Shown: in pieces, positions 988 through 20,168 of the stretch
How positions within the stretch are numbered: the stretch's first letter is position 1
Layout: each line of letters starts with the position of its first letter
Origin: Crocinitomicaceae bacterium
GTDB lineage: Bacteria; Bacteroidota; Bacteroidia; Flavobacteriales_D; Crocinitomicaceae
Length of the DNA: 40,488 nt
Assembly: GCA_023253775.1 (NCBI GenBank)
Contig: JALRFI010000172.1
Location: 1-40,488, forward strand
Reading direction: 5' to 3'
The notes under the pieces: model-generated
Told to the model about the DNA's origin: nothing
The model's input: the letters and a program-made list of their open reading frames with translations, nothing else
Databases searched by the model: none
Position numbers and translations under genes: made by a program

Positions 988-1022
988 TTGGGTGATTTTG
1001 TTGCACAACCCTATTATATTTG
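988..1022 (+). promoter_or_regulatory. Bacteroidota-type promoter
   Basis: TATATTTG at 1015-1022 matches the -7 consensus TAnnTTTG exactly. A TTG at 988-990 lies 24 bases upstream, slightly far for the usual -33 element. Transcription would start near 1027-1030, just ahead of the small ORF ending at 1407. Confidence 0.5.
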
Positions 1023-1026
1023 TACT

Positions 1027-1407
1027 GTGCTAAAGGCATTTTGTCAACGGTTGATCTTAATCATTACACCAATTGTAATGTTGACAAATGTTTCTTTGAG
1101 TTTCATCGATTCCATCAATTCTTTTGCTTCGGACGTAAAGTCTGAAACTATTTTTTCGAAATCTTCCTCGTCAACAGTTCTTGATCTTCCAATGGAGGTA
1201 TCTACGCTTGAGTTAGAAGAAGCTGAAGAAAGCTTTGAAGAGTTAAAAGAAACTGACAATGGATTTGACTCCTTCGTTCAAAGCTTCTATAGTGCTTCAG
1301 GAGCGAACATTCACGATAATCTTTCACGATTAAAAGAATGTCAGTGTTCGCTGTCATTCAAATACAATCAACCTGCCTATCTGGTAAACGAAAATTTCAG
1401 ACTATAA
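1027..1407 (+). CDS. small predicted secreted protein of unknown function
   Basis: A short ORF framed by a promoter-like box just upstream and a strong terminator eight bases after its stop, which supports it as a free-standing gene. From GTG 1027 it encodes 126 residues. The N-terminus has basic residues followed by a hydrophobic run (LILIITPIVMLTNVSLSF) like a signal peptide or anchor. The rest is Ser/Glu-rich with an acidic stretch (about residues 60-77) and one pair of close cysteines (CQC) near the C-terminus. The ORF track uses TTG 988, which lies upstream of the promoter box and is unlikely; ATG 1078 is another option but drops most of the hydrophobic segment. No homologue is recognised. 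It precedes the dab genes, but the terminator between them argues for a separate transcript. Confidence 0.5.
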   Translation: MLKAFCQRLILIITPIVMLTNVSLSFIDSINSFASDVKSETIFSKSSSSTVLDLPMEVSTLELEEAEESFEELKETDNGFDSFVQSFYSASGANIHDNLSRLKECQCSLSFKYNQPAYLVNENFRL

Positions 1408-1414
1408 CCAATTG

Positions 1415-1447
1415 CCTTGTAATGAGTTCATTGCAAGGATTTTTTTT
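1415..1447 (+). terminator. rho-independent terminator
   Basis: A 10-bp stem (CCTTGTAATG / CATTGCAAGG, one T-G wobble) with loop AGTT, followed by eight T residues. It closes the small gene ending at 1407 and separates it from dabA. Confidence 0.85.
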
Positions 1448-1471: not shown

Positions 1472-3988
1472 ATGAAAATTTCTGAGTACTCGTATGGCGA
1501 TGAGTACAAAATTATTGAAGAACTAAAACATTTTCTTCCAAGTCAAGCCCCGTTAAAAGACTTTATTCATCACAATACTTTACATGCTTTTCAGCATGAT
1601 GAGTTTGAAAAAGCCTTGTTTAATGCTTCGCAGACCTTTGGGTATCGTGTCTACCTATCACTTGATCAATTCAGGATGAAATTCCGTGAAGGTGAAATTG
1701 AGGAGTCAATTCTCGATGAGGAGATAAGAATTAGAAAGGGCAACGATTCCGAAAGCTGGAAAAGGAAAATGTTAGAAGGTGCCTTCAACGAGGATCTTGA
1801 ACCTGAAATCGGAAGATTAAGGCATCATTGGAAATCAAGGTACAGGATCGACATGGATTCAATGGTTCATCCGTTATTTTTCAGGATCCTGAGCAGTTAT
1901 CTGGATCAAGGGATTGCAATATGGGGATTCCCTGTGTCTGATAAAGGTTTTTTAGTTTCCCTGGCTGATTTGGAAAGGAATTCAAAAACTTCCTTTTTCA
2001 AAACGGATCGAGCAAGAAAATTACTAATCGATGGAAGATCAAATCTTTCTGATCTGCTTAAACTAATTGTTGGGAATAAGGAGTTATATGAAAGATATCT
2101 TTTTGATCAGCAATTTGCTCATCCGGGTTGGTCCGGAATGGTCGCGGTCATTGAAGGGAATATTGAGCATCTCCTTGATAAGAGGAAGATAACGCTTGAG
2201 GAGTTCATCTGTTTTGAGTTACTATTGGAAATTGATGTGCTGGATGATCATTTCGGTTGTGTTTGGTCTCCGATTGGAGTGAACAACCCTGATCATTTTG
2301 AAGATTTGTTTTCGCACAAAAAGGTGAATGAGTACTTTGAAGTACTTCATATTTTTCAAGCATCCTATGAATGGACATATTACCAAAGTGTTCTGAGAGG
2401 AATTGGTCAGTTGAAGAAAGAGCAAAGGGAAGAACTTCAAACCTTCGTTGCTTTGTTCTGTATTGATGATAGGGAATGTTCAATAAGAAGGCATTTAGAA
2501 TCACAGAACCCTGGGATCAAAACTTATGGGACGGCTGGGTTCTTTAATGTGGAGTTCTTTTATCAATCAGGAGAGAGTCAATTTTACACAAAGGTGTGCC
2601 CAGCTCCTTTAACTCCTGCGTATTTGATCAAAGATGAAAGTGCATCCTTTAAAAAGAAAAAGGATTTCCACTTTGGACATCATTCTAATGGCCTTTTCTT
2701 AGGATGGATATTCACTTACACCTTAGGATTTTGGTCTGCTTTGAGACTCTTTTTAACTGTCTTCAAACCTCAGGAGTCAGCCTCAATGGTGACATCTTTT
2801 GGACATATGGATCCTCAGTCAAAACTCACTATTGAAAATAAAAATGGCGAGAAAACCGAGGACGGTTTACAGATTGGATTTACAATTCATGAAATGGCTG
2901 ATCGTCTGGAAGGTTTACTGAGAAGTATAGGATTGATCTCGAATTTTGGTAAAGTGATTTATGCAATTGGTCATGGATCAAGTAGTGTAAATAATACGCA
3001 TTATGCAGGCTACGATTGCGGTGCTTGTTCCGGGAGGCCTGGATCAGTTAATGCAAGAGTAATCGCTCATATTGGAAACCACCAACAAGTTCGATCAATA
3101 CTCAGAGAAAAGGGGATCGATATTCCGGATGAAACAGTCTTTGTGGGGGCATTGCATGACACCTCTAGGGATGAGATTATGTACTATGATCTTGATGTTT
3201 TAAGTCCTGCACAAAGTAAATATCATCAAGCTTTCGCTGATTCAATGAGCAATGCGCTTGATTTTAATGCAAAGGAGCGTTCACGCAGATTTGTTCTTAC
3301 ACCTTCACATGGAGATCCAAAAAAGGTTCATGAAAAGGTAAAGCTGAGAACGATCTCACTTTTTGAACCAAGACCTGAATTGAATCATGCGACGAATACC
3401 TTGTGTATAGTAGGTAGGAGAGAATTGACAAAGAACCTGTTCCTAGATCGAAGAGCATTTTTGAATTCATACGACTATAGTATTGATCCAGAAGGAAAAT
3501 ATCTTACTGGTATTCTGAATGCCGTAGCACCCGTTTGTGGTGGGATTAATCTAGAATATTTCTTCTCTAGAGTCGATAATCAGAAACTAGGAGCCGGAAC
3601 AAAACTACCTCATAATGTGATGGGATTGATCGGTGTGGCCAATGGTATTGATGGAGACTTGCGAACCGGTTTACCGAGTCAAATGATCGAAGTACATGAT
3701 CCGTTAAGGCTATTGGTGATCGTCGAACATGATCCTGAAGTGGTTCTAAATGTGTTGATCAACAATCCAAAAACATACGAATGGTTTCTGAACGGATGGG
3801 TGAATTTGTGTGTGCTGGATCCAATGACATCCATTGTTTACAGGTTCTTGAATGGTGAATTAATTCCTTCGGATCTGAACGAACCACTCAATCAAACAAT
3901 TGCAGATCTGATGAAGACTGTAGAAGTTAATTCTGAAAATCTACCTGTTAGTCATTTAATACCTGAAGAATATGGAACAGCTCGTTAA
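1472..3988 (+). CDS. dabA: inorganic carbon transporter subunit DabA (DUF2309/UPF0753)
   Basis: An 838-residue DUF2309 protein, the soluble peripheral subunit of the DAB inorganic-carbon accumulation complex. DabA has a beta-carbonic-anhydrase-like zinc site thought to hydrate CO2 directionally when coupled to the cation flux of DabB. The zinc site is complete: Cys330 and Asp332 in CIDDRE, His501 in GHGSSS, and Cys516 in DCGACSG. The spacings (2 and 15 residues) equal those of the Halothiobacillus ligands C351/D353/H524/C539. The family's N-terminal motif is at residues 31-40 (FIHHNTLHAF). ATG 1472 has no better alternative downstream. The 3' end overlaps dabB by 17 bases, indicating translational coupling. 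A carboxylase pathway is not visible here, so the likely use is supplying bicarbonate for anaplerotic or biosynthetic carboxylation. Confidence 0.95.
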   Translation: MKISEYSYGDEYKIIEELKHFLPSQAPLKDFIHHNTLHAFQHDEFEKALFNASQTFGYRVYLSLDQFRMKFREGEIEESILDEEIRIRKGNDSESWKRKMLEGAFNEDLEPEIGRLRHHWKSRYRIDMDSMVHPLFFRILSSYLDQGIAIWGFPVSDKGFLVSLADLERNSKTSFFKTDRARKLLIDGRSNLSDLLKLIVGNKELYERYLFDQQFAHPGWSGMVAVIEGNIEHLLDKRKITLEEFICFELLLEIDVLDDHFGCVWSPIGVNNPDHFEDLFSHKKVNEYFEVLHIFQASYEWTYYQSVLRGIGQLKKEQREELQTFVALFCIDDRECSIRRHLESQNPGIKTYGTAGFFNVEFFYQSGESQFYTKVCPAPLTPAYLIKDESASFKKKKDFHFGHHSNGLFLGWIFTYTLGFWSALRLFLTVFKPQESASMVTSFGHMDPQSKLTIENKNGEKTEDGLQIGFTIHEMADRLEGLLRSIGLISNFGKVIYAIGHGSSSVNNTHYAGYDCGACSGRPGSVNARVIAHIGNHQQVRSILREKGIDIPDETVFVGALHDTSRDEIMYYDLDVLSPAQSKYHQAFADSMSNALDFNAKERSRRFVLTPSHGDPKKVHEKVKLRTISLFEPRPELNHATNTLCIVGRRELTKNLFLDRRAFLNSYDYSIDPEGKYLTGILNAVAPVCGGINLEYFFSRVDNQKLGAGTKLPHNVMGLIGVANGIDGDLRTGLPSQMIEVHDPLRLLVIVEHDPEVVLNVLINNPKTYEWFLNGWVNLCVLDPMTSIVYRFLNGELIPSDLNEPLNQTIADLMKTVEVNSENLPVSHLIPEEYGTAR

Positions 3989-5840
3989 TTTATTTGTGCT
4001 GATCCCATTATTCGGTTTTATTATGGGATTAGTTATCCCTTCACAAAAGGAGGGAGCACTTTCGAAGATTACCTATGTAACGATCGGTTTGCAGCTTATA
4101 GTATCTGTGATCTTCATTGGATGGTGGATTTGGAATGAATCGAATGTCATAAATCTGAAGGAATTTTCAATTTTCAAAACAGTTCATTATGACTTTTTCA
4201 TTGACCTGTACTTTGATAAGATCTCAGCGACGTACATTCTTATTGGGGCAGTTCTTACTTTCCTTATAACGGTATATAGCAGATACTATTTGCATCGTGA
4301 GGAAGGGTATAAGAGGTTCTTCAATACAATCATGTTCTTCTATTTGGGTTACTCGATCGTTACCGTCTCCGGAAACCTTGAAACTCTTTTCATAGGGTGG
4401 GAAATTTTAGGGGTGTCATCCTTTTTATTGATCGCTTTTTATCGTGACAGATATTTGCCGGTGAAGAATGCGGTGAAGGTCTTCTCGATCTATCGCATCG
4501 GGGATGTTGGTGTGATCCTGGCAATGTGGCTTAGTCATCACATGTGGAATGAAAACATTTCATTTTATAAGTTGAACAATTATGAACTGGTGCATGATCA
4601 CATAGTTGAACATAGCTTGGTAGGGCTGTTCGTTGCCATCGTAATCTTTATTTCCGCTGCTGCCAAATCAGCTCAGCTTCCATTTTCAAGTTGGTTACCG
4701 AGAGCTATGGAAGGTCCAACTCCGTCGAGTGCAATTTTTTACGGATCGCTAAGCGTTCATATGGGGGCTTTCCTTTTAATGAGGACATATCCATTTTGGG
4801 AACAACAGATCTCATTCAGGATATTCGTCATTTTAATGGGGATTGCGACTAGTGTGATGGCGACATTGACCGCACGGGTTCAATCGTCAATAAAAAGCCA
4901 GATCGCATATTCTTCTGTTGCTCAGATAGGATTGATCTTTGTTGAAATCGCCTTGGGATGGGAAACATTCGCGTTGATCCATGTTGCAGGTAATGCATTC
5001 CTAAGAACATATCAATTGTTGGTTTCTCCGTCGATAGTAAGCTATAAGATCAGAGAGCAGCAATATCATTTCGTGCCGAAACAAAGGACGCTTGAAGACA
5101 GTTGGCCGAAGCGAATTGAATACACACTCTATATGTTGAGTTTGAAAGAATGGAACCTTGATTCTATCATGTATAAATACATGTGGAATCCTTTAAAGAA
5201 AATAGGTTCCAGATGGTCTTTCTTGACGTTTAAAAATGTTTATTTCTTTTTTGCAGGAGCCTTCATTTTGGGGATGGTTCTGTCGTTTAATCAAGACTGG
5301 ATTTCTCCATGGTGGAGATTTTACCTTCCATTGATCTATGCCTTTATTGGATTGTTAATGGTGATCAAAGCGTTCACCGAACGCGCCAGTGTGCGATTAA
5401 GCTGGAGCTTGATCATAACAAATCACTTTGGTATTGCTCTGGCAATTTCATTCAATGAACATTTTGATGCCCTGCATCATGTTTGGTATCTCGGTGGGGT
5501 CGTTGTTTCTGGATTGCTCGGCTATGCATGTATTCAAAGACTAAGATCACTTGAAAGCTGGGTGAGTTTGGATCAATTCTATGGACATGTCTATGAACAT
5601 CCCAAAATTGGATTCATGTTTTTAATTGCTTGTTTGGGTGTTTCAGGATTTCCGATCACTCCCACGTTCGTTGGAGAGGATTTGATCTTTAGCCACATAA
5701 AGGAAGATCAATTGATGTTGGCATTCTTGATTTCAATGAGTTTCATCATCAATGGCCTGGCAGCAATCAGGATCTATGCAAGAATATTTTTAGGACCTCA
5801 TGTTAAAACCTATCACGGATCAGCAAAGAGGTCATCATAA
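3972..5840 (+). CDS. dabB: inorganic carbon transporter membrane subunit DabB (NuoL-like)
   Basis: A 622-residue polytopic inner-membrane protein of the NuoL/MrpA proton-conducting family, partner of DabA. It carries the family signature: WEILGVSSFLLIAFYRDR with the key Glu, and AAAKSAQLPFSSWLPRAM with the key Lys, followed by EGPTPSSA. NuoL's HAATMV segment is replaced by FYGSLSVHMG. No other complex I or Mrp subunits are nearby, and adjacency to dabA makes DabB the best reading. A hydrophilic stretch around residues 355-410 splits two hydrophobic halves. It should supply ion-gradient energy (H+ or Na+) to DabA. It overlaps dabA by 17 bases and is followed 29 bases later by a SulP permease. 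Confidence 0.93.
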   Translation: MEQLVNLFVLIPLFGFIMGLVIPSQKEGALSKITYVTIGLQLIVSVIFIGWWIWNESNVINLKEFSIFKTVHYDFFIDLYFDKISATYILIGAVLTFLITVYSRYYLHREEGYKRFFNTIMFFYLGYSIVTVSGNLETLFIGWEILGVSSFLLIAFYRDRYLPVKNAVKVFSIYRIGDVGVILAMWLSHHMWNENISFYKLNNYELVHDHIVEHSLVGLFVAIVIFISAAAKSAQLPFSSWLPRAMEGPTPSSAIFYGSLSVHMGAFLLMRTYPFWEQQISFRIFVILMGIATSVMATLTARVQSSIKSQIAYSSVAQIGLIFVEIALGWETFALIHVAGNAFLRTYQLLVSPSIVSYKIREQQYHFVPKQRTLEDSWPKRIEYTLYMLSLKEWNLDSIMYKYMWNPLKKIGSRWSFLTFKNVYFFFAGAFILGMVLSFNQDWISPWWRFYLPLIYAFIGLLMVIKAFTERASVRLSWSLIITNHFGIALAISFNEHFDALHHVWYLGGVVVSGLLGYACIQRLRSLESWVSLDQFYGHVYEHPKIGFMFLIACLGVSGFPITPTFVGEDLIFSHIKEDQLMLAFLISMSFIINGLAAIRIYARIFLGPHVKTYHGSAKRSS

Positions 5841-5869
5841 TTGAATTAATAACATTAAATAGAAATAAG

Positions 5870-7459
5870 ATGTTACAAGAAAAAATAAAGGTTCCACAAG
5901 ATGGAATCAAAGGTTTGAAAGAAAATTTTGGAGTAGATTTTCTTTCTGGTTTTATGGTTTTTTTATTGGCATTACCACTCAGTTTAGGTATTGCTAAAGC
6001 CAGTGAGTTTCCTCCGGCAATGGGTGTGCTTACAGCAATGATTGGAGGTCTCTTCGTGTCATTGTTTATGGGTGCAAGAATGACGATAAAAGGTCCTGCT
6101 GCAGGTTTAATTACTGTTTGCGCAGGAGCTGTAATTGAAATGGGAGGAGGTGTCGCAGGTTGGCAAATGACTGTGGCAGCTATTGTAGTGACAGGTGTGA
6201 TCCAGTACATTTTGGGATGGCTCAAAGTAGGAAAATTGAACGATTTTTTCCCTCATTCTGCTGTTCATGGAATGTTGGCTGCGATCGGGATACTCATTTT
6301 TGCTAAGCAATTCCCCATTCTATTAGGAGTGGATCCTGCTTTAACGAAAGGGCTTTCACCAATTGAATTGTATACCCACATTCCACTTTTCATTACAAAA
6401 GCTAACCCGACAATCGCCTTAATAGGAATTATTGGATTAGTGATCCTTTTCGGATTACCTCTCCTTGGGAAATCCTTTAAAAAAGTTCCAGGTCCTTTGG
6501 TTGTTTTATTGATTGCGGTTCCTATTGCAATTGGAATGGATTTCAAAACTTTACAACCAGAATATTCATTAGTGAAAATTGGAGATTTCTGGAGTACAGT
6601 GAAGATCAACGTTGACTTCTCACTTGTCGGAACATTTGTTTTCTGGAAATATGTTTTCATGTTCTTATTCGTAAATAGTTTAGAGTCATTATTGACGGTT
6701 AAAGCGATAGACGGTCAGGATCCGTACAAAAGAAAATCTGATTATGATAAAGATCTTAGGGCTCTTGGAATGGGTAATTCCTTGTCAGGTTTATTAGGTG
6801 GGCTACCAATGATCTCTGAAGTTGCCCGTAGTGCGGCAAACGTCAATTTTGGTGGAAGAACCAGATGGGCTAATTTCTTTCATGGGTTCTTCTTATTGGT
6901 CGCCATGTTGCTTATGATTCCTGTGATCGAACTTATTCCTAATTCTGCATTGGCAGCGATGTTGATCTTTGTAGCCTACCGTTTGGCTTCTCCAAAAGAG
7001 TTCATAGGCGTTTACAAAGTTGGTCCAGAACAATTGGTGATCTTTTGTACTACGATCTTGGTAACTGTATTAGAAGACCTGTTATTGGGAATAGCTGCAG
7101 GTATCCTGGTGAAGTTTATCTTCCACTTAGCGAATGGTGCTAAATTCTCATCATTGTTCAAGGCAAAGTATTCGATCAAAGTTATTGGTGATCAACATTA
7201 CCTGGATCTTGAAGGGTCAGCGGTTTTCTCTAATTTGATTACATTTAAACATATTTTTGAAGAAATCCCCAAAAGAAAACTAATCATCATCGATTTTTCG
7301 AAGGTGAGATTTATTGATCATTCCTTCATGGACTTTTTAGAGCGATTTGAAGAAGATTATCAATATGAGGGTGGCAGAGTCACAATAGTGGGTTTTGAGA
7401 AGTTTAAAAACCTCTCCAAGCATAATTTATGTGCAAGAAAAAGTGTAAGTAATGCGTAG
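5870..7459 (+). CDS. SulP family anion permease with C-terminal STAS domain
   Basis: 529 residues. Positions of about 20-430 form the hydrophobic SulP core, with the early family motif FLLALPLSLGIAKASEFPP and the GPAAGLI segment. Residues of about 440-525 are a STAS domain (LIIIDFSKVRFIDHSFMDFL). SulP proteins exchange or symport sulfate, bicarbonate and related anions; BicA-type members take up bicarbonate with Na+. Location 29 bases after dabB and before a porin-like gene supports a bicarbonate role, by context only. The STAS loop has DHS where anti-anti-sigma proteins have DSS, so canonical Ser phosphorylation at that position is unlikely. The stop overlaps the next ORF's first ATG. Confidence 0.88.
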   Translation: MLQEKIKVPQDGIKGLKENFGVDFLSGFMVFLLALPLSLGIAKASEFPPAMGVLTAMIGGLFVSLFMGARMTIKGPAAGLITVCAGAVIEMGGGVAGWQMTVAAIVVTGVIQYILGWLKVGKLNDFFPHSAVHGMLAAIGILIFAKQFPILLGVDPALTKGLSPIELYTHIPLFITKANPTIALIGIIGLVILFGLPLLGKSFKKVPGPLVVLLIAVPIAIGMDFKTLQPEYSLVKIGDFWSTVKINVDFSLVGTFVFWKYVFMFLFVNSLESLLTVKAIDGQDPYKRKSDYDKDLRALGMGNSLSGLLGGLPMISEVARSAANVNFGGRTRWANFFHGFFLLVAMLLMIPVIELIPNSALAAMLIFVAYRLASPKEFIGVYKVGPEQLVIFCTTILVTVLEDLLLGIAAGILVKFIFHLANGAKFSSLFKAKYSIKVIGDQHYLDLEGSAVFSNLITFKHIFEEIPKRKLIIIDFSKVRFIDHSFMDFLERFEEDYQYEGGRVTIVGFEKFKNLSKHNLCARKSVSNA

Positions 7460-8804
7460 TCTAAGTATGAAGCCTTTTCGTTTATTGTTCTTATGTATTT
7501 TGACGTTATCAAATCAGCTAATGGCCCAGAAGAATGATCTCAAATTTTGGTTTGACGAGGCCAAAGGGACATACTTTCAAGTCACTTTCTTAAATCAGAC
7601 CTGGGTAAGGTTCAATGAAAGTAATTCGGGAACGAAACTGAATGGAGTTGAAGAAACAAGCACATTTGACATTGGATTAAGAAGGACTAGAATACAGATG
7701 TTTGGGCAGATCACCCCAAAAGCATTCATGTATTTTCAATTTGGACAAAACAATTTCAATGCAGTGTACAGCAACAATGGTAATCGCAAGATCGCCCCGT
7801 TTTTTCATGATGCACTTTGTGAATATAAATTGTCAAATGCCAATCAATTAAAATTTGGAGGAGGCTTGACCATAGCGAATGGATTGTCCAGATTCTCGCA
7901 ACCATCGATTGGCACAATAATGACCATGGACGTGCCTGTTTTTGCTCAGGCAACCGTAGAAAAGATCGATCAATTTGCAAGAAAGTTGAGTCTGTATGCA
8001 AGGGGTCAAGTATCAAAGTTGGATTACAGATTTGTCGTTTCAGATCCATTTCCAATCAGCACCCTAGGGGGATCGACTGAACCTATTTCAGACAATTCTT
8101 CTTTTTCAGTCCAAAAGCGAAATAAGCAGTTTCAGACCTATTTAAGTTGGCAGTTTTTGGAAAAAGAGGGGCATACCACTCCATACATGACTGGTACCTA
8201 TTTGGGTAAGAAAAAAGTGTTCAATGTAGCGGCCGGGATGATCTTTCAAAAAGACGCAATGTGGAGGACAGTGAATTCGGCTGATACATTGTTTGAGAAT
8301 CTTAATCTGTTCTGTGTTGAATCCTTTCTTGATCTACCTTTGAACAAAGAGAAAAAGAATGCAATAATGGCATATGCAGGGTATTTTATTACTGATTATG
8401 GAAAAAATTATTTGCGCTATAATGGGTTGATGAATCCGGCTGATGGTTCCAATGCTCAAAACGCAATTACAGAAGCGGGCCCTGTTTACGGTAATTCATA
8501 TCCGATGTTTGGCACAGGAAAAGTTATTTATTCTCAAATCGGTTACTTGTTTCGAAATAATTTGCTGGGAGAAGAGTTAGGCACACTTCAACCGTATGCT
8601 TCTTTTACATTAGGAAAATATGAAAGGCTGCAGGGAAACAATTCTGATGTTTACAATGTTGGTCTGAATTGGTTGTTGAACGGACATAATGCTAAAATTT
8701 CATTCGATTTTCAGTCACGGCCGTCATTCTTTACAGAAAACAATGTTGTAACCAAAGGAGGGAGAAAGAGTTGTTTTATCCTTCAGTTTCAGGCTTCGAT
8801 TTAA
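7452..8804 (+). CDS. outer-membrane porin-like protein
   Basis: 450 residues with an N-terminal signal peptide (KPFRLLFLCILTLS...LMAQ) and alternating hydrophobic/polar beta-strand patterns to the C-terminus, which ends in a barrel-type strand (SCFILQFQASI). The segment IGLRRTRIQMFGQITPKAFM resembles the first strands of phosphate-selective (OprO/OprP-like) porins. The ORF may begin at 7452, overlapping sulP by 8 bases, or at ATG 7467, which gives a tighter signal peptide. Translational linkage with the SulP permease suggests it admits the same anion through the outer membrane, an inference from position. A strong terminator follows 32 bases after the stop. Confidence 0.75.
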   Translation: MRSLSMKPFRLLFLCILTLSNQLMAQKNDLKFWFDEAKGTYFQVTFLNQTWVRFNESNSGTKLNGVEETSTFDIGLRRTRIQMFGQITPKAFMYFQFGQNNFNAVYSNNGNRKIAPFFHDALCEYKLSNANQLKFGGGLTIANGLSRFSQPSIGTIMTMDVPVFAQATVEKIDQFARKLSLYARGQVSKLDYRFVVSDPFPISTLGGSTEPISDNSSFSVQKRNKQFQTYLSWQFLEKEGHTTPYMTGTYLGKKKVFNVAAGMIFQKDAMWRTVNSADTLFENLNLFCVESFLDLPLNKEKKNAIMAYAGYFITDYGKNYLRYNGLMNPADGSNAQNAITEAGPVYGNSYPMFGTGKVIYSQIGYLFRNNLLGEELGTLQPYASFTLGKYERLQGNNSDVYNVGLNWLLNGHNAKISFDFQSRPSFFTENNVVTKGGRKSCFILQFQASI

Positions 8805-8835: not shown

Positions 8836-8874
8836 GAGAAGTCGGTCAGCTGAAGATCGACTTCTCTTTTTTTT
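8836..8874 (+). terminator. rho-independent terminator ending the dab operon
   Basis: A perfect 9-bp stem GAGAAGTCG / CGACTTCTC around a 13-base loop, followed by eight T residues. Confidence 0.9.
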
Positions 8875-8901: not shown

Positions 8902-9501
8902 ATGACAGAAGATATTAAAGCATTGAGCTATTGCGTAGGAATGAGTATCGCAGGAAGTTTGATCGATCAGCAATTAGCTGGAATAGATACTGCGACACTT
9001 GCAGAAGCAATTGATGACGCATTTACAGGAAAAGAACCGAAATATTCACCAGATGAAGCGAATGCGATCATACAGCGATTCATGCAACTTCAAATGGAGA
9101 AGCAATTTGAACAAAATAAAATTGAAGGCGAAGAATTTCTAAAGCAAAATGCACTAAATGAATTAGTGTGCATAACAGCTTCAGGACTTCAGTATGAAGT
9201 TTTGGTAGAAGGAAATGGTTCAAAACCAGATGCGAACAGTACAGTCACCGTGCACTACCATGGAACTTTGGTAGATGGAACGGTGTTCGATAGTTCGGTG
9301 ACAAGAAATGAACCAGCTACGTTTGGCGTTCGTCAGGTGATTCCAGGTTGGACTGAAGCATTACAGTTGATGAATCAGGGGGCGAAATACAGATTGTATA
9401 TTCCACAGGAATTGGCCTATGGCGCAAATCCTCATCCCGGTGGGCCGATCAAGCCATACAGTACTTTAATTTTTGATGTTGAACTTTTAGAAATAGCGTA
9501 A
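8902..9501 (+). CDS. FKBP-type peptidyl-prolyl isomerase, FklB-like, cytoplasmic
   Basis: 199 residues without a signal peptide. Residues 1-90 match the helical FKBP_N dimerisation domain (LSYCVGMSIAGSL and a long charged helix). Residues 105-198 form a complete FKBP catalytic domain with the active-site Tyr (VHYHG), FDSS, VIPGW, LAYG and a closing IFDVELLEI strand. This is the plan of E. coli FklB, which isomerises Xaa-Pro bonds. Its stop overlaps the next gene's ATG by one base (TAATG), so the two FKBP genes are co-transcribed. Confidence 0.92.
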   Translation: MTEDIKALSYCVGMSIAGSLIDQQLAGIDTATLAEAIDDAFTGKEPKYSPDEANAIIQRFMQLQMEKQFEQNKIEGEEFLKQNALNELVCITASGLQYEVLVEGNGSKPDANSTVTVHYHGTLVDGTVFDSSVTRNEPATFGVRQVIPGWTEALQLMNQGAKYRLYIPQELAYGANPHPGGPIKPYSTLIFDVELLEIA

Positions 9502-10445
9502 TGAAGAAGTTTTTGTTTTTATTCGTCGCTGCCATTGCGTTATCGGCTTGTGGAGGTGATAAAGAGGAAGTGAAGGAAGAGGTTGTTGAATTGAAAGATT
9601 TTAAAGATCGTCTTTCATATGTTCTCGGTTCTGTAAATGCTAAATCGATTGTTGGTCAGGAGGATCCAAATGTAGCAAGACTGGATATGAATCTTGTTGC
9701 AAAAGGTTTTGAGTCCAATTTGAATGATAATATGCCTGATGGTTGTGAGGAAACGCTGATGAAGTTGTTTGGACCTTATTACCAGGATTTTGATTCTACT
9801 TATGCTGCTGAAGGTGCAGAGTGTTTGGGTAAGTTAACAGCGTATGCCTTTTACCGTGATATGAATAGCCTTGGTGGATTGGAAAAGATCGATCTTAAAA
9901 TGGTCGTGAGTGGATTCAGACATGGATTAATGAAAAAGGACACGTTGATTGCTGATGCTGAAAAGCAAAGCATTCTTCAAAATTTCATCATGGATCTGAA
10001 TGTTACGAATGGAAAGAAGATGATGGCGGAAGCAAAAAAGAAGCCTGGTGTTCAGGTTTTTGAGAACGGTATCATCATGGAAGTGATTCAGGAAGGAAAA
10101 GGTGGAAATCCTGGAGCAACTGACGATGTGAAGGTTGAATATATCCTCACATCAGCAACAGGAGATACGATCCAGAGCTCTTATGATATGAAAAAGACAA
10201 ATGGTTCTGCTGAATCGGTTGCCTTGAAATTGAACGGTGGTGTGATCCCTGGTTGGAGTTATGCCTTACCTAAAATGAAAAAAGGTGGGAAATATAGATT
10301 ATGGGTTCCTTGGGAGCTTGCCTATGGTGAACAAATGGGTAAAGAGTCTCTTTGCTTCTTTATTGAGCTCGTAGATTACGCAAAGGAAGGGTCGTTTGTG
10401 AAACCTGACCCAATGCCTAATCCGGGAGCAGCGGCAGGATTTTAA
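9501..10445 (+). CDS. FKBP-type lipoprotein with duplicated N-terminal domain and degenerate active site
   Basis: 314 residues. The N-terminus (FLFLFVAAIALSACGG) is a lipoprotein signal with lipobox LSAC, so it is membrane-anchored. Two helical FKBP_N-like modules follow: about residues 32-95 (RLSYVLGSVNAKS) and about 110-180 (KLTAYAFYRDMNSL). The FKBP_C domain is at about 205-300 and keeps GVIPGWSYALPKM and WELAYGEQ, but the FDSS active-site stretch reads IQSSYD, so catalysis is doubtful and a chaperone role is plausible. The C-terminal tail is Pro/Gly-rich. It is translationally coupled to the cytoplasmic FKBP and is probably a secreted-protein folding factor. Confidence 0.85.
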   Translation: MKKFLFLFVAAIALSACGGDKEEVKEEVVELKDFKDRLSYVLGSVNAKSIVGQEDPNVARLDMNLVAKGFESNLNDNMPDGCEETLMKLFGPYYQDFDSTYAAEGAECLGKLTAYAFYRDMNSLGGLEKIDLKMVVSGFRHGLMKKDTLIADAEKQSILQNFIMDLNVTNGKKMMAEAKKKPGVQVFENGIIMEVIQEGKGGNPGATDDVKVEYILTSATGDTIQSSYDMKKTNGSAESVALKLNGGVIPGWSYALPKMKKGGKYRLWVPWELAYGEQMGKESLCFFIELVDYAKEGSFVKPDPMPNPGAAAGF

Positions 10446-14930: not shown

Positions 14931-17900
14931 ATGAAATTATTCAGTAAATACATGGCGTTCAGTTATGTGTTTTTTCTATCACTTTTTTCTTATTCACAAC
15001 GAGCAAAAGAAGGGAACTATACAGTAACAGCCTCGAATACTGTAGTCAATACCTATACAACCATGACGGCTAACGCAAGTGCTGGGGCGACATCAATAAG
15101 TGTTACCAGTAATGCAATGTCAGGAGGTGTCTTCAGCGGAAATCTAGCTGCTGGTGATCTCATTATGATTATTCAGATGCAGGGTGCCTCAATAGACGTA
15201 AACACTATACCTACTGCTGTTTGGGGTGGAAATTATACTGTAATGGTTTCAGAGTGGATTGAATGGTGGCTGTATGCAGAGCTATGGGGAACAGTTTTGA
15301 ACTATAACAATTCTGGAAAGTTTGAGCAAGTCGAAGTAAAGAGTGTTTCTGGTTCAAACACCATTAATTTACAATGTGGTCTCCAAAATAATTACACATC
15401 TGCAGGCAAGGTTCAGGTAATTAGAGTCCCGAGATTTGACAACCTTACACTAAACTCAAATACTTCAATTGTTCCTACTTTGTGGAACGCATCTACGGGA
15501 GGTGTTGTTGCGATTGAAGTTAATGGAAATCTAACTTTAAATGCCAATTCGAGAATTTCAGCTTCTGGATATGGATTCAGAGGGGCTGTAGCGAATAATG
15601 TTGGAACCACTCTGAGTGGTGGAGCGACATGTGGATATGGACCTGGGTATGGTTGTACATTTTTAGGTTCTAATGTTTCTTCTAATGGTGGTCGTAAAGG
15701 AGAAGGCATAGCAGGTTATGAAACTGAATATGCAGTATTGTATTCGGAATTTGGCAGAGGGGCTCCTGCGAACGGAGGCGGAGGTGGAGGATACACAAAT
15801 TCGGGAGGAGGTGGAGGTTCCAACATCGGAGTTGGAACTTATACAGGAAAAGGGGTTCCGAATCCAACGTATAATGCTGCATGGAATTTGGAACTTCCTG
15901 GCTTAGGAGGTTCGAGCAGTCCTGGTGGAGGAAGAGGTGGTTATACTGTTAGTTCTTCAGATCAGAATGCTCTCACTCTTGGTCCTAATCAGGCTGCTTG
16001 GAGTGGTGCCGGTCGTCAGATCAATGGTGGTTTAGGTGGTCATTCTCTTACTTATGATGCTACTCGGCTTTTTATGGGCGGCGGAGGTGGTGCTGGTGAT
16101 CAGGATAATGGACAAGGTGGCGGCGGAGGCCGTGGTGGCGGTATTGCACATGTGACGGTCTACGGAAATATTTCAGGTACGGGAATTATTGAGGCCGATG
16201 GTTCAGTTGGTCAGAACTCAAATCCTAATAATCAGGTGCCGGTAATTTCGCCAACCTCTGCTCAGAGAAAGGGTAATGATGGAGCAGGTGGAGGAGGAGC
16301 AGGTGGGGCTGTATATATTAAAAATTCTTCTGTTATTCCTGCAGGAATTCAAGTTTATGCTCGAGGAGGAAACGGAGGGAATCAGGTGTTGAGCTCATAT
16401 TTTTCAGGAACGTCCTTTGAAGCAGGAGGACCTGGAGGTGCTGGTTCAGGTGGACAGATTGCATTCACTAGCGGAACTCCAACGACCTCAGTTGCTGGTG
16501 GAAATTCTGGAACAACGAATTCAGGTCAACTGAATGAATTTCCTCCAAATGGTGCAACGAATGGTGCATCCGGAATTGGGGGGATCGCAACTACGATATT
16601 TAACATGACAGCAAATAATGCAACTGTTTGTGGTAGTGGATCGGCAACATTATCGGTTAATGTTACTGGAATAGCACCCGGAACAATTACATGGTATACG
16701 ACACCTTATGGTAATGTAAGTGTTGGAACGGGAACAAGTTATACTCCAACTCCCACACCAGCGACTACAACAACTTTTTACGTAGGTGTGTGTCCAGGTA
16801 CATTCAGAGTGCCGGTTACGATAACTGTCAATCCAGCGCCTGCTATCAGTGGTACACCAATCTTAACGAATCCAAGTTGCTCAACCCCTGGAAGTATAAC
16901 AGGCTTAACAGCATCTGGTGGCACCGGTGCTTTGACGTATAACTGGAACTCAGTTGTTACAGCTGGACCAAACCTAACAAATGCGTCCGCAGGATCTTAT
17001 ACTTTAATCGTTACAGATGCATTAGGCTGCACAGCCTCCTCAGGACCTCACACCTTAACAGGTATTTCGGGTCCAACAATTGACAATACTGCTGTTGTTG
17101 TATCAAGCGAAATTTGTAACGGCACATTTGGTAGTATTACTGGATTGATCGCGACCGGAAATAGTCTTACTTACGCATGGAATAATGGTGGAGGTTCCTC
17201 TTTGAATGCAACAAATTTATTTTCTGGCACCTACACCTTAACAGTTACCGATAATTTGGGTTGTACCGCTACTTCAGGACCTTACGCAGTCGCTTTTGTG
17301 GCTGGGCCAAGTATCGACGACTCCGGAATTTCCATCATAAATGAAACATGTACTGCTTCGAATGGTTCAATCTCTGGAATCACATCGAGTGGTTCAGGAT
17401 TATCCTATTCATGGTCCAATGGGGGTGGTTCTAGTCTTAATGCATCGAATTTATCCGCAGGAAGTTATTCTTTGACGGTGACTGATGGAAATGGGTGCAC
17501 CGATAACTCTGGGCCATACAGCATTACAGATTCACCTGCTCCAGTGATTGATATCTCATCCATAGTTTTGAATGATGAGAATTGTGGAAATTCCGATGGA
17601 TCCATCGCAGGGATAACAGTAAGTGGTGGATCTCCGGCATACCTAATCTCGTGGACTAATACTTCACAAACAACATTGGATCTTTCTGGATTAAGCTCCG
17701 GATCATACTCTTTAACCGTTAGTGATCAGTTAGGATGTTCGGCCACGGCTGGCCCATTCTCAATTGCTAATCAGACAGGTACTACGATAGATAATTCAAA
17801 TGTCGTAGTTCAGGATGAGATCTGTAATGGCACATTGGGTTCAATTTCCGGATTAGTTGTAAGTGGCGGACAGGTTCCATTAGTTTATGCATGGAATGCT

Positions 17901-20168
17901 GCTCCTTCTGCAGGTCCCGTTCTTTCTGGAGCTTCTGCAGGTTCATATACTTTAAGTGTGATTGATGGAAATGGTTGTTTAGCACAGTCTGGGCCTTATA
18001 CGATCAATTATATTGCTGGACCAACTTTGGACGAATCACTCGCTTCAGTGACAGATGAGTCATGTAATGGTACTTTGGGTTCTATAACAGGATTTTCTGC
18101 TACGGGCACAAGTCTTACCTATACATGGAGTAATGGGGGAGGAAATAACATGGATGCGACCAGTCTGAATGCAGGAAATTATTCTTTGACGGTGACAGAT
18201 ATAAACGGATGCACAGCTTCTTCAGTTGTGTATAATGTTGATTTTATTGTTGGTCCGTCCATTGATAATAGTGGTCTTGTCGTTTCTCCAGAAAACTGTA
18301 ATAATGCCAATGGTGCCATTTCAGGCCTTTCGGCAAGTGGAACTTCACTTTCATATTCATGGAGTAACGGTGGAGGTACTGCAATAGACATAAGTAATGC
18401 TGTAGCGGGATCATACACATTGACAGTAACAGACGTCAATGGTTGTTCTGATACAGAGGGTCCGATCGTGATTTCAAATCAAGGTGGACCGTCAATAGAT
18501 GATTCGGGTATTTCGATCATGGATGAGCATTGTTCTCAAAATGATGGAAGTATATCAGGTATGACAGTGTCAGGAGGTTCTCCGGCCTATACTATCACTT
18601 GGTCAAATTCAACGCAGTCGACGTTGGATCTGACGTCTCTTGCGGCAGGTTCTTATCAGCTAACAGTATCAGATCAGAATGGTTGTTCGATTAGTAGCGG
18701 TCCTTATACGGTTAATGCGGTTGCCGGTCCTTCAATTGACGTTTCATCTGTAGTAGTTCAAGCTGAACTATGTGATGGCACTCAAGGATCCGTTACAGGA
18801 ATTACTGCATCTGGGACAGGCCTAACTTATGCATGGTCGAATGGTGGAGGAACGTCTCTTGATGCAACTGGATTGGTGCCAGGGACTTATGGTCTTACAG
18901 TTACAGATGCATTCGGATGTACGGCTAGCGCTGGCCCATACACTGTTGCTGCTCCAGCTGGGGTGAGTTTGGATCTATCAAATATGATCGTAAATGAAAC
19001 AGCTTGTACTTCTAACACCGGATCAATTTCAGGAATTATTATTGTAGGAGGTAATAATCCTTCTCCATTATGGTCAAACTCAGAAACGACGCTTGACATT
19101 AGCAATTTGGGAGCTGGTAGTTATACTTTAACAGTGACTGATGATGATGGTTGTACAGATCAGACTTCTGTTGATATTACGATGATCAATGCGCCGTCAA
19201 TTACTTCTGCAATACCAACTGATGTAAGTTGTTTTGGTTTATCTGATGGTAGTATTGATGTTACCATAGCCGGAGGAACAACTCCTTACTCGTTCACATG
19301 GACTCCTAATGTTGGATCTACTGAGGATGTTACGGCATTAGCAGCGGGTAATTATACTGTGGTAGTTACAGATGATGTCGGATGTTCGGATTCAGAAACG
19401 ATCACTGTAGCTGAAACTCAAGAGTTGTTGCTTACTTTATCTGTTACGGATATCAATTGTGCAACTGGTGCCTTAGGCGGAATAATCTCAAATGTTACAG
19501 GAGGAGATGGTAATTACACGTATTTGTGGGGTAATGGTGAAACGGCGTCCTCGATTTCAAATCAAAATGCAGGAGAGTATGGTTTAACTGTTACAGATGG
19601 CAATGGATGTAATTCAAATACATCAGGTATTATTGGTACAACTGGTTCAATTCCTGTAAGTGTTGATCCAGCTTATTCAGAAATAGATCTAGGATCTTCT
19701 GTTCAGTTGAATTTAACGGGTACGGGTACTGTAGTATGGACACCAAATACAACATTGGATTGTACAAGTTGTTCAGACCCTGTTGCTACTCCGTCTAATT
19801 CGACGACTTATGTTGCGATTGTGACGGACCCTAATGGTTGTTCTGGATCTGACTCTGCAACAGTGGTTATTAAAATGGTTTGCGGAGAATTGTTTCTGCC
19901 TACGATCTTTTCACCAAATGGAACTGGTCCGGCTGACAATAATGTGTTCAAAGCATTCGGAAACCCGTCCTGTGTAACTGAATTTAAGCTTCAGGTCTTC
20001 AACAGATGGGGTGAAATGGTATTTGACACCGAAACCATTGCGGAAGGCTGGGATGGTCAATATAAATCTCAAGATGCAAATACAGGCATCTACGTTTACC
20101 GTTTGTTTGCTGTTCTTATTGATGGAACAGTTGTAGATACATCGGGTAATTTGACCTTAGTGAGATAG
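14931..20168 (+). CDS. giant type IX-secreted adhesin-like protein with SprB repeats
   Basis: 1745 residues. Residues 1-22 are a signal peptide (YVFFLSLFSYS). About 25-275 is an N-terminal beta-rich domain. About 276-540 is very Gly-rich (GGGGGGYTNSGGGGGSN). About 557-634 is an Ig/PKD-like domain. About 634-1573 holds twelve tandem SprB-like repeats of about 78 residues. About 1576-1650 is another Ig-like domain (TTYVAIVTDPNGCSGSDS). The last 95 residues are the gliding-motility-associated C-terminal domain (LFLPTIFSPNG, FNRWGEMVFD, GWDGQY, GIYVYRLFAV) recognised by the type IX secretion system. It should be exported and attached to, or released from, the cell surface. SprB itself is a mobile gliding adhesin; this protein is much shorter, so adhesion or aggregation is inferred. 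It leads a tight run of genes. Confidence 0.92.
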   Translation: MKLFSKYMAFSYVFFLSLFSYSQRAKEGNYTVTASNTVVNTYTTMTANASAGATSISVTSNAMSGGVFSGNLAAGDLIMIIQMQGASIDVNTIPTAVWGGNYTVMVSEWIEWWLYAELWGTVLNYNNSGKFEQVEVKSVSGSNTINLQCGLQNNYTSAGKVQVIRVPRFDNLTLNSNTSIVPTLWNASTGGVVAIEVNGNLTLNANSRISASGYGFRGAVANNVGTTLSGGATCGYGPGYGCTFLGSNVSSNGGRKGEGIAGYETEYAVLYSEFGRGAPANGGGGGGYTNSGGGGGSNIGVGTYTGKGVPNPTYNAAWNLELPGLGGSSSPGGGRGGYTVSSSDQNALTLGPNQAAWSGAGRQINGGLGGHSLTYDATRLFMGGGGGAGDQDNGQGGGGGRGGGIAHVTVYGNISGTGIIEADGSVGQNSNPNNQVPVISPTSAQRKGNDGAGGGGAGGAVYIKNSSVIPAGIQVYARGGNGGNQVLSSYFSGTSFEAGGPGGAGSGGQIAFTSGTPTTSVAGGNSGTTNSGQLNEFPPNGATNGASGIGGIATTIFNMTANNATVCGSGSATLSVNVTGIAPGTITWYTTPYGNVSVGTGTSYTPTPTPATTTTFYVGVCPGTFRVPVTITVNPAPAISGTPILTNPSCSTPGSITGLTASGGTGALTYNWNSVVTAGPNLTNASAGSYTLIVTDALGCTASSGPHTLTGISGPTIDNTAVVVSSEICNGTFGSITGLIATGNSLTYAWNNGGGSSLNATNLFSGTYTLTVTDNLGCTATSGPYAVAFVAGPSIDDSGISIINETCTASNGSISGITSSGSGLSYSWSNGGGSSLNASNLSAGSYSLTVTDGNGCTDNSGPYSITDSPAPVIDISSIVLNDENCGNSDGSIAGITVSGGSPAYLISWTNTSQTTLDLSGLSSGSYSLTVSDQLGCSATAGPFSIANQTGTTIDNSNVVVQDEICNGTLGSISGLVVSGGQVPLVYAWNAAPSAGPVLSGASAGSYTLSVIDGNGCLAQSGPYTINYIAGPTLDESLASVTDESCNGTLGSITGFSATGTSLTYTWSNGGGNNMDATSLNAGNYSLTVTDINGCTASSVVYNVDFIVGPSIDNSGLVVSPENCNNANGAISGLSASGTSLSYSWSNGGGTAIDISNAVAGSYTLTVTDVNGCSDTEGPIVISNQGGPSIDDSGISIMDEHCSQNDGSISGMTVSGGSPAYTITWSNSTQSTLDLTSLAAGSYQLTVSDQNGCSISSGPYTVNAVAGPSIDVSSVVVQAELCDGTQGSVTGITASGTGLTYAWSNGGGTSLDATGLVPGTYGLTVTDAFGCTASAGPYTVAAPAGVSLDLSNMIVNETACTSNTGSISGIIIVGGNNPSPLWSNSETTLDISNLGAGSYTLTVTDDDGCTDQTSVDITMINAPSITSAIPTDVSCFGLSDGSIDVTIAGGTTPYSFTWTPNVGSTEDVTALAAGNYTVVVTDDVGCSDSETITVAETQELLLTLSVTDINCATGALGGIISNVTGGDGNYTYLWGNGETASSISNQNAGEYGLTVTDGNGCNSNTSGIIGTTGSIPVSVDPAYSEIDLGSSVQLNLTGTGTVVWTPNTTLDCTSCSDPVATPSNSTTYVAIVTDPNGCSGSDSATVVIKMVCGELFLPTIFSPNGTGPADNNVFKAFGNPSCVTEFKLQVFNRWGEMVFDTETIAEGWDGQYKSQDANTGIYVYRLFAVLIDGTVVDTSGNLTLVR
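16832..19650 (+). repeat. twelve tandem SprB-like repeats inside the adhesin gene
   Basis: Each unit is about 235 bases (78 residues) with the pattern GPSIDxS, ExCxGxxGSIxG, YxWSNGGG, LxAGSYTLTVTDxNGC, SGPYxV. The copies have diverged in DNA sequence but keep phase. The last two units (from about 19200) are nearer the general SprB consensus (CFGLSDGSIDVTIAGGTTPY) than the inner ones. Confidence 0.85.

Follow-up and report, generated by a model that had tools for sequence, protein, structure and literature searches.

A dabA-dabB gene cluster of Bacteroidota with a linked, sometimes fused, SulP permease and an outer-membrane barrel

The window analysed here is a stretch of 40,488 nucleotides of DNA from a Crocinitomicaceae bacterium (assembly GCA_023253775.1, contig JALRFI010000172.1), and it carries a DabA-DabB pair together with a SulP permease, a porin-like protein and a small acidic protein. 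The features of the cluster, all of them on the forward (+) strand, are as follows.

988..1407, + strand: gene for a small exported or anchored acidic protein of 139 aa (TTG start; start uncertain) without a Pfam family
1415..1438, + strand: terminator-like hairpin, 10 pairs then T8, in the gap between the small gene and dabA
1472..3988, + strand: dabA, 838 aa, beta-carbonic anhydrase-like cytoplasmic subunit (PF10070, with active-site matches to solved DabA2)
3972..5840, + strand: dabB, 622 aa, antiporter-like membrane subunit (Proton_antipo_M; matches to NuoL and DabB2)
5870..7459, + strand: sulP, 529 aa, of the DAB-dedicated clade I, with E272 in TM8 and E317 and R320 in TM10
6818..6820, + strand: codon for the clade-specific TM10 glutamate E317 of SulP
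7452..8804, + strand: gene for a porin-like outer-membrane beta barrel of 450 aa with a signal peptide, beta-rich and probably of 16 strands
8836..8866, + strand: intrinsic terminator-like hairpin ending the cluster, 12 pairs and eight T

An earlier, sequence-only reading of this DNA had described dabA and dabB as overlapping, sulP as starting 29 bases past dabB, the porin-like gene as overlapping or abutting sulP, and a terminator as closing the set. All of this was borne out, as the ORF coordinates give an overlap of 17 nt between dabA and dabB, a gap of 29 nt before sulP and an overlap of 8 nt between sulP and the porin-like gene, and the set ends in the hairpin at 8836-8866. The total count of terminator-like hairpins in the region did not exceed that in shuffled sequences, and this one was the strongest of them. 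The hairpin at 1415-1438 was considered as a leader attenuator, an idea that we rejected as not general because similar hairpins were present in just 28 of 100 homologous gaps (10 expected). Right after the cluster lie two FKBP-type isomerase genes (8902-10445) that share one base, the ATG of the second being placed at the stop of the first, and a secreted repeat protein of 1745 aa, with a C-terminus judged by eye to be of the gliding type, is encoded at 14931-20168.

In Pfam searches the window DabA matched PF10070 over its full length (E=8e-213, profile positions 1-747 of 747) and DabB matched Proton_antipo_M (E=4e-41); the latter also matched NuoL and DabB2 (9rd0_B, E=8e-28). The cryo-EM structure of Halothiobacillus DabA2 has Cys351, His524, Cys539 and a water as zinc ligands, and Asp353 forms part of an Asp-Arg dyad (PMC13144422). 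By comparison with this solved protein (9rd0), C330, H501 and C516 make up the zinc site of the window DabA and D332 and R334 the dyad, while R334, H562 and D567 are the counterparts of DabA2 R355, H585 and D590; all seven of the active-site residues checked were thus present. The sequence-only reading had counted four zinc ligands in exact family spacing. All four residues are indeed kept, but only three of them are ligands, the fourth being the Asp of the dyad, and the spacing is exact for C-x-D and from His to Cys (15) but not from Cys to His, which are 171 residues apart as against 173 in DabA2.

On the strength of its family and conserved active site, the window DabA-DabB most likely acts as do other DAB complexes (Halothiobacillus DAB2; DAC of Thiomicrospira; PDB 9rd0), with which it shares a PF10070 DabA with matching active-site residues, an antiporter-like DabB and adjoining genes. 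It differs from them in that its DabA is only distantly similar (a phmmer score of 210 bits, covering residues 316-800) and in that the window type has a dedicated SulP, an outer-membrane barrel and a small protein, with SulP-DabA fusions also occurring. The window pair further resembles MpsAB of Staphylococcus, in which DabB/DabA homologues give inorganic carbon to a heterotroph. To our knowledge, MpsAB has no SulP or outer-membrane partner, unlike the window cluster.

To place the cluster among its relatives, PF10070 was used to search two samples, one of 299 genomes from the order (80 positive) and one of 297 from the phylum (20 positive), and gene families in the regions around the matches were assigned by profile HMMs built for this analysis. 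Two DAB types could be seen in these regions, one with dabB followed by dabA and the other, to which the window belongs, with the reverse order. A co-directional sulP was present in the cluster in 56 of the 60 dabA-dabB loci that had at least 1.5 kb of sequence remaining beyond dabB, and in 0/21 dabB-dabA loci (order and phylum samples); the counts are strong but do not translate into a probability, as related genomes are not independent. A further locus sample, gathered with the fusion described below as query and so biased to the SulP-DabA order, was left out of these linkage counts. We conclude that the difference between the two types rules out chance linkage of sulP to dab. Where sulP comes after dabB the median gap is 25 nt, and among the four exceptions lacking a co-directional sulP two (L120 and L121) have a divergent sulP of clade I adjoining. 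The phylum members with the dabA-dabB-sulP partnership come from several families and several classes.

The linkage on which the sequence-only reading had staked its proposal was therefore kept in relatives, for sulP and also for an outer-membrane barrel (42/52, see below). Its fixed unit dabA-dabB-sulP-porin was not, since sulP may stand ahead of dabA and the barrel or carbonic anhydrase (CA) gene may occupy several slots. The parts of the cluster are known and the arrangement is new; we found neither linkage nor fusion of SulP and DabA described in the literature searched, the coverage of which was incomplete and does not establish absence. In one locus (L107) a second dabA without a dabB of its own lies directly upstream of a small gene-dabA-dabB-sulP-porin set. 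Window-type dabA-dabB without sulP was also seen in L170 (CP025011.1), L193 and L175, records titled Saccharibacteria and Kaiserbacteria, one of which is a complete chromosome, and lateral transfer is a possible explanation for their presence there.

The small gene at 988-1407, which was absent from the sequence-only reading, heads the cluster. An ORF of 112-164 aa with a hydrophobic N-terminus, an acidic middle and usually a short conserved C-terminal motif lies directly upstream of 59 of 66 dabA-dabB clusters, and any small ORF was found at that place in only 4/21 loci of the dabB-dabA type, three of these lacking a hydrophobic segment. The dN/dS ratio of 0.23-0.28 in close pairs indicates that this is a real gene; its product had no match in Pfam. 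Separate copies of it stand ahead of separate sulP or CA-sulP units in L177, L074 and L077. As a guess, the small protein might be an accessory subunit or a regulator of the transporters.

SulP and DabA were found in one frame in seven ORFs of 1383-1423 aa from six genomes (loci L076, which is on the same contig as and identical with L140, L128, L129, L130, L132 and L145), and the L145 fusion is that of an isolate, Neolewinella lacunae KCTC 42187. These fusions take the partnership further than the sequence-only reading had suggested. The Sulfate_transp and DabA domains recognised by Pfam are both full-length in the L145 and L130 proteins. The fusions are 62-81% mutually identical and retain both the STAS end of SulP and the N-terminus of DabA, joined by a short and variable linker; in L148, a near relative of the fusion loci, sulP and dabA are separate and overlap by 4 nt. 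On the DabA tree the fusion needs two changes, and a single origin could still be accommodated. Gene fusion is commonly taken as a sign of functional or physical partnership. Since the SulP-DabA partnership recurs across the phylum and is fused in some relatives, we conclude that permease and pump very probably act as one machine. The natural fusions imply that SulP would dock on DabA by its cytoplasmic STAS end, and a complex of this kind may be expected to form in the unfused window version as well. The position of the junction fits the topology, as the STAS domain of SulP and DabA are both cytoplasmic (PMC13144422, PMC8298490).

An explanation for these fusions that would not need to invoke joint action is that they merely secure co-expression, with DabA-DabB being an Na+/HCO3- symporter of the MpsAB type and SulP a second, independent bicarbonate transporter of different affinity. 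Staphylococcus MpsAB has been proposed as a sodium-bicarbonate symporter (summarised in PMC13144422), but the window DabA retains every catalytic residue for CO2 hydration, and protein fusion is hardly needed to co-express genes that lie 0-30 nt apart. We consider this explanation improbable.

The window SulP matched Sulfate_transp in Pfam (E=3e-57), with a weak match to STAS. The SulP tree places the DAB-linked SulPs, that of the window among them, in clade I (86 rows) and the CA-linked SulPs in clade II (45 rows), which includes a second SulP of the window's own genome that adjoins a beta-CA (L126). Support separating the two clades is 97-99%, the window SulP does not group with the CA-linked proteins, and both clades are far from BicA, DauA, SULTR4;1 and SLC26Dg. 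A grouping with sulfate transporters, which the sequence-only reading had named as evidence against itself, was thus not seen, the window SulP belonging instead to a DAB-associated clade of its own, apart from these references. The group nearest to clade I is a third one, consisting of SulPs of about 745 aa that have no dab genes beside them, and support for separating clade I is here just 58. Clade-I SulP and window-type DabA occur together in 59 of the 299 order genomes, SulP alone in 4, DabA alone in 7, at least some of which owe to a match cut at a contig end, and neither in 229; clade-I SulP is therefore accompanied by DAB in 59/63 genomes. SulPs of 710-760 aa (L063, L070, L121 and L214-L216), both DAB-linked and unlinked, share a C-terminal extension of ~200 aa without a Pfam family.

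Alignment of these proteins identified a clade-I TM10 motif, GGLPMISE-x-x-RS, the glutamate of which (E317 in the window) is present in 86/86 sequences, as against valine in 45/45 of clade II. At this position BicA and DauA have Ala, SLC26Dg Met, SULTR4;1 Ser and the third SulP group Val or Ala. The TM8 glutamate, E272 in the window, is conserved in 131/131 clade-I and clade-II relatives and is the counterpart of SULTR4;1 Glu347 and of an aspartate in BicA, both of which matter for ion coupling (PMC8298490). The window SulP shares with BicA, a cyanobacterial Na+/HCO3- SulP (6ki1), the SulP fold, the STAS domain and an acidic TM8 residue, but this is Glu, the BicA aspartate being absent, and TM10 has Arg and Glu where BicA has Gly and Ala; the NCBIfam BicA model scored it at 101.8 bits, far short of the cut-off, which is 880.

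It could be argued from the Pfam name, Sulfate permease, and from the TM10 Arg shared with SULTR4;1 that SulP is an ordinary permease for sulfate or another anion that hitch-hikes in the operon. However, R320, the counterpart of Arg393, is the only plant-type sulfate transporter residue found in the window SulP: the sulfate-binding Gln112 and Tyr116 of SULTR4;1 TM1 align with L37 and I41, and Ser392 of TM10 with A319. Taken with the 56/60 linkage, the dedicated clade and the fusion, this leaves the hitch-hiker explanation nearly refuted. SulP-carbonic anhydrase pairs and fusions were reportedly described by Felce and Saier in 2004. Such pairs (for example can-sulP of Acidithiobacillus, PMC6458275) resemble the window cluster in that a SulP is linked at the gene level, or fused, to an enzyme interconverting CO2 and bicarbonate; the window SulP differs in belonging to another clade and in having the energy-coupled DabA, and no free beta-CA, as its partner.

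An outer-membrane barrel is encoded in at least 42 of 52 complete dabA-dabB clusters, a DUF2490 protein in 33 and a window-type porin in 9, and the other 10 have no recognised barrel nearby. The dedicated porin proposed in the sequence-only reading therefore stands as a barrel, but DUF2490 rather than a porin is the commoner form. The window porin gave a borderline 19.4 bits with Porin_O_P (PF07396; cut-off 20.9), and its ExtI match was also below the cut-off. In a fold search against the PDB its AF2 model, which is of low confidence (pLDDT 61), came closest to the phosphate-selective porins OprP and OprO, a likeness to be set against the sub-threshold Pfam score. DUF2490 was modelled as a barrel of ~12 strands (pLDDT 90.5), with the NanC porin as nearest fold (E about 1e-3). 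In two genomes (L220 and L209) small gene-sulP-porin was found on a contig without adjoining dabAB, which suggests that the porin accompanies sulP. In the window cluster this porin would be the route for inorganic carbon.

We also examined carbon use in the host. The window's own genome encodes a beta-CA, as do most dab+ genomes, although several lack it; there is thus no mutual exclusion, and DAB as a CA replacement was rejected. It follows that DAB is not the only bicarbonate route of this host. Searches of the genome, a MAG that is 86% complete, turned up no Rubisco and no PEP carboxylase. Given the beta-CA and these two results, the cluster probably serves bicarbonate supply to a heterotroph and not a carboxysome-type concentrating mechanism.

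The reading that we favour as probable is that of a DabA-DabB bicarbonate pump with a dedicated bicarbonate-moving SulP in the same complex and an outer-membrane barrel, forming the inorganic-carbon supply set of a heterotrophic, uncultured Bacteroidota bacterium. Proton flow through DabB, powered by the proton-motive force, would drive one-way hydration of CO2 by the cytoplasmic, zinc-bearing DabA. Clade-I SulP would move bicarbonate over the inner membrane, most likely inward and ion-coupled via E272 and the clade-specific E317, so that DabA-DabB and SulP would jointly use CO2 and bicarbonate. The barrel would admit bicarbonate through the outer membrane, and the likely use would be to feed carboxylases, not Rubisco CO2 fixation. 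Besides the active site, the linkage, the co-occurrence, the fusions and the barrels, two features of relatives count in favour of this reading: 23 loci of the wider set carry a complete beta-CA of cytosolic type (CxDSR; no signal peptide by eye) between sulP and dabA, and fusions of SulP with CA are found next to the cluster. The distance of clade I from BicA and its lack of the BicA aspartate, the clusters without a recognised barrel, the failure to find PEP carboxylase in the 86% complete genome, the beta-CA of that genome, and the expectation that an energised pool of bicarbonate would be run down by a cytosolic CA all count against it.

A more specific version, which we put forward tentatively and regard as possible but doubtful, is that clade-I SulP is bound to DabA-DabB in a single physical assembly, which in some species includes SulP and DabA as one polypeptide. 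Within it the permease, which carries the unique TM10 glutamate, would exchange bicarbonate or a proton directly with the site at which energy-coupled hydration of CO2 takes place. The whole would be a composite pump for CO2 and bicarbonate, served by a pore in the outer membrane and a small exported accessory protein of its own. What DAB complexes do in heterotrophs and how energy is coupled to CO2 hydration are questions on which the fusion and the phylum-wide dedicated SulP offer a direct handle: they indicate a transporter partner of DAB, provide a single-polypeptide structure target in the cultured Neolewinella lacunae, and single out the TM10 Glu as one named residue for mutation. Paired uptake of CO2 and bicarbonate across both membranes would also be of interest for carbon-supply engineering.

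Transport in the opposite direction was weighed as well. DAB might make internal bicarbonate that SulP releases while taking up another anion (chloride, sulfate or organic), the cluster then serving pH control or anion uptake with DAB as its power source. The cytosolic-type beta-CA inside the cluster in 23 loci would suit such an exchange, anion exchange is common among SLC26/SulP proteins, a role in pH regulation, besides one in uptake, has been proposed for SulP-CA pairs (PMC6458275), and the invariant TM10 Arg resembles that of the sulfate transporter SULTR4;1. However, the acidic TM8 residue E272 is invariant and has been linked, in SULTR4;1 and BicA, to import coupled to cations (PMC8298490), and an outer-membrane pore in the cluster suits uptake better than export. 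We therefore consider export or exchange unlikely.

The window's genome also contains a second inorganic-carbon locus (L126:7077-9621), which consists of a small acidic ORF, the clade-II SulP and the beta-CA, with a gamma-CA-like hexapeptide protein encoded nearby (L126 10343-10858). CA-like proteins of ~170-180 aa occur in DAB loci of both types (L106:5148-5654, L036:9385-9930 and L040:9367-9876); they have CNDC or CPDC instead of CxDSR, and those of L106 and L040 scored above the Pro_CA cut-off.
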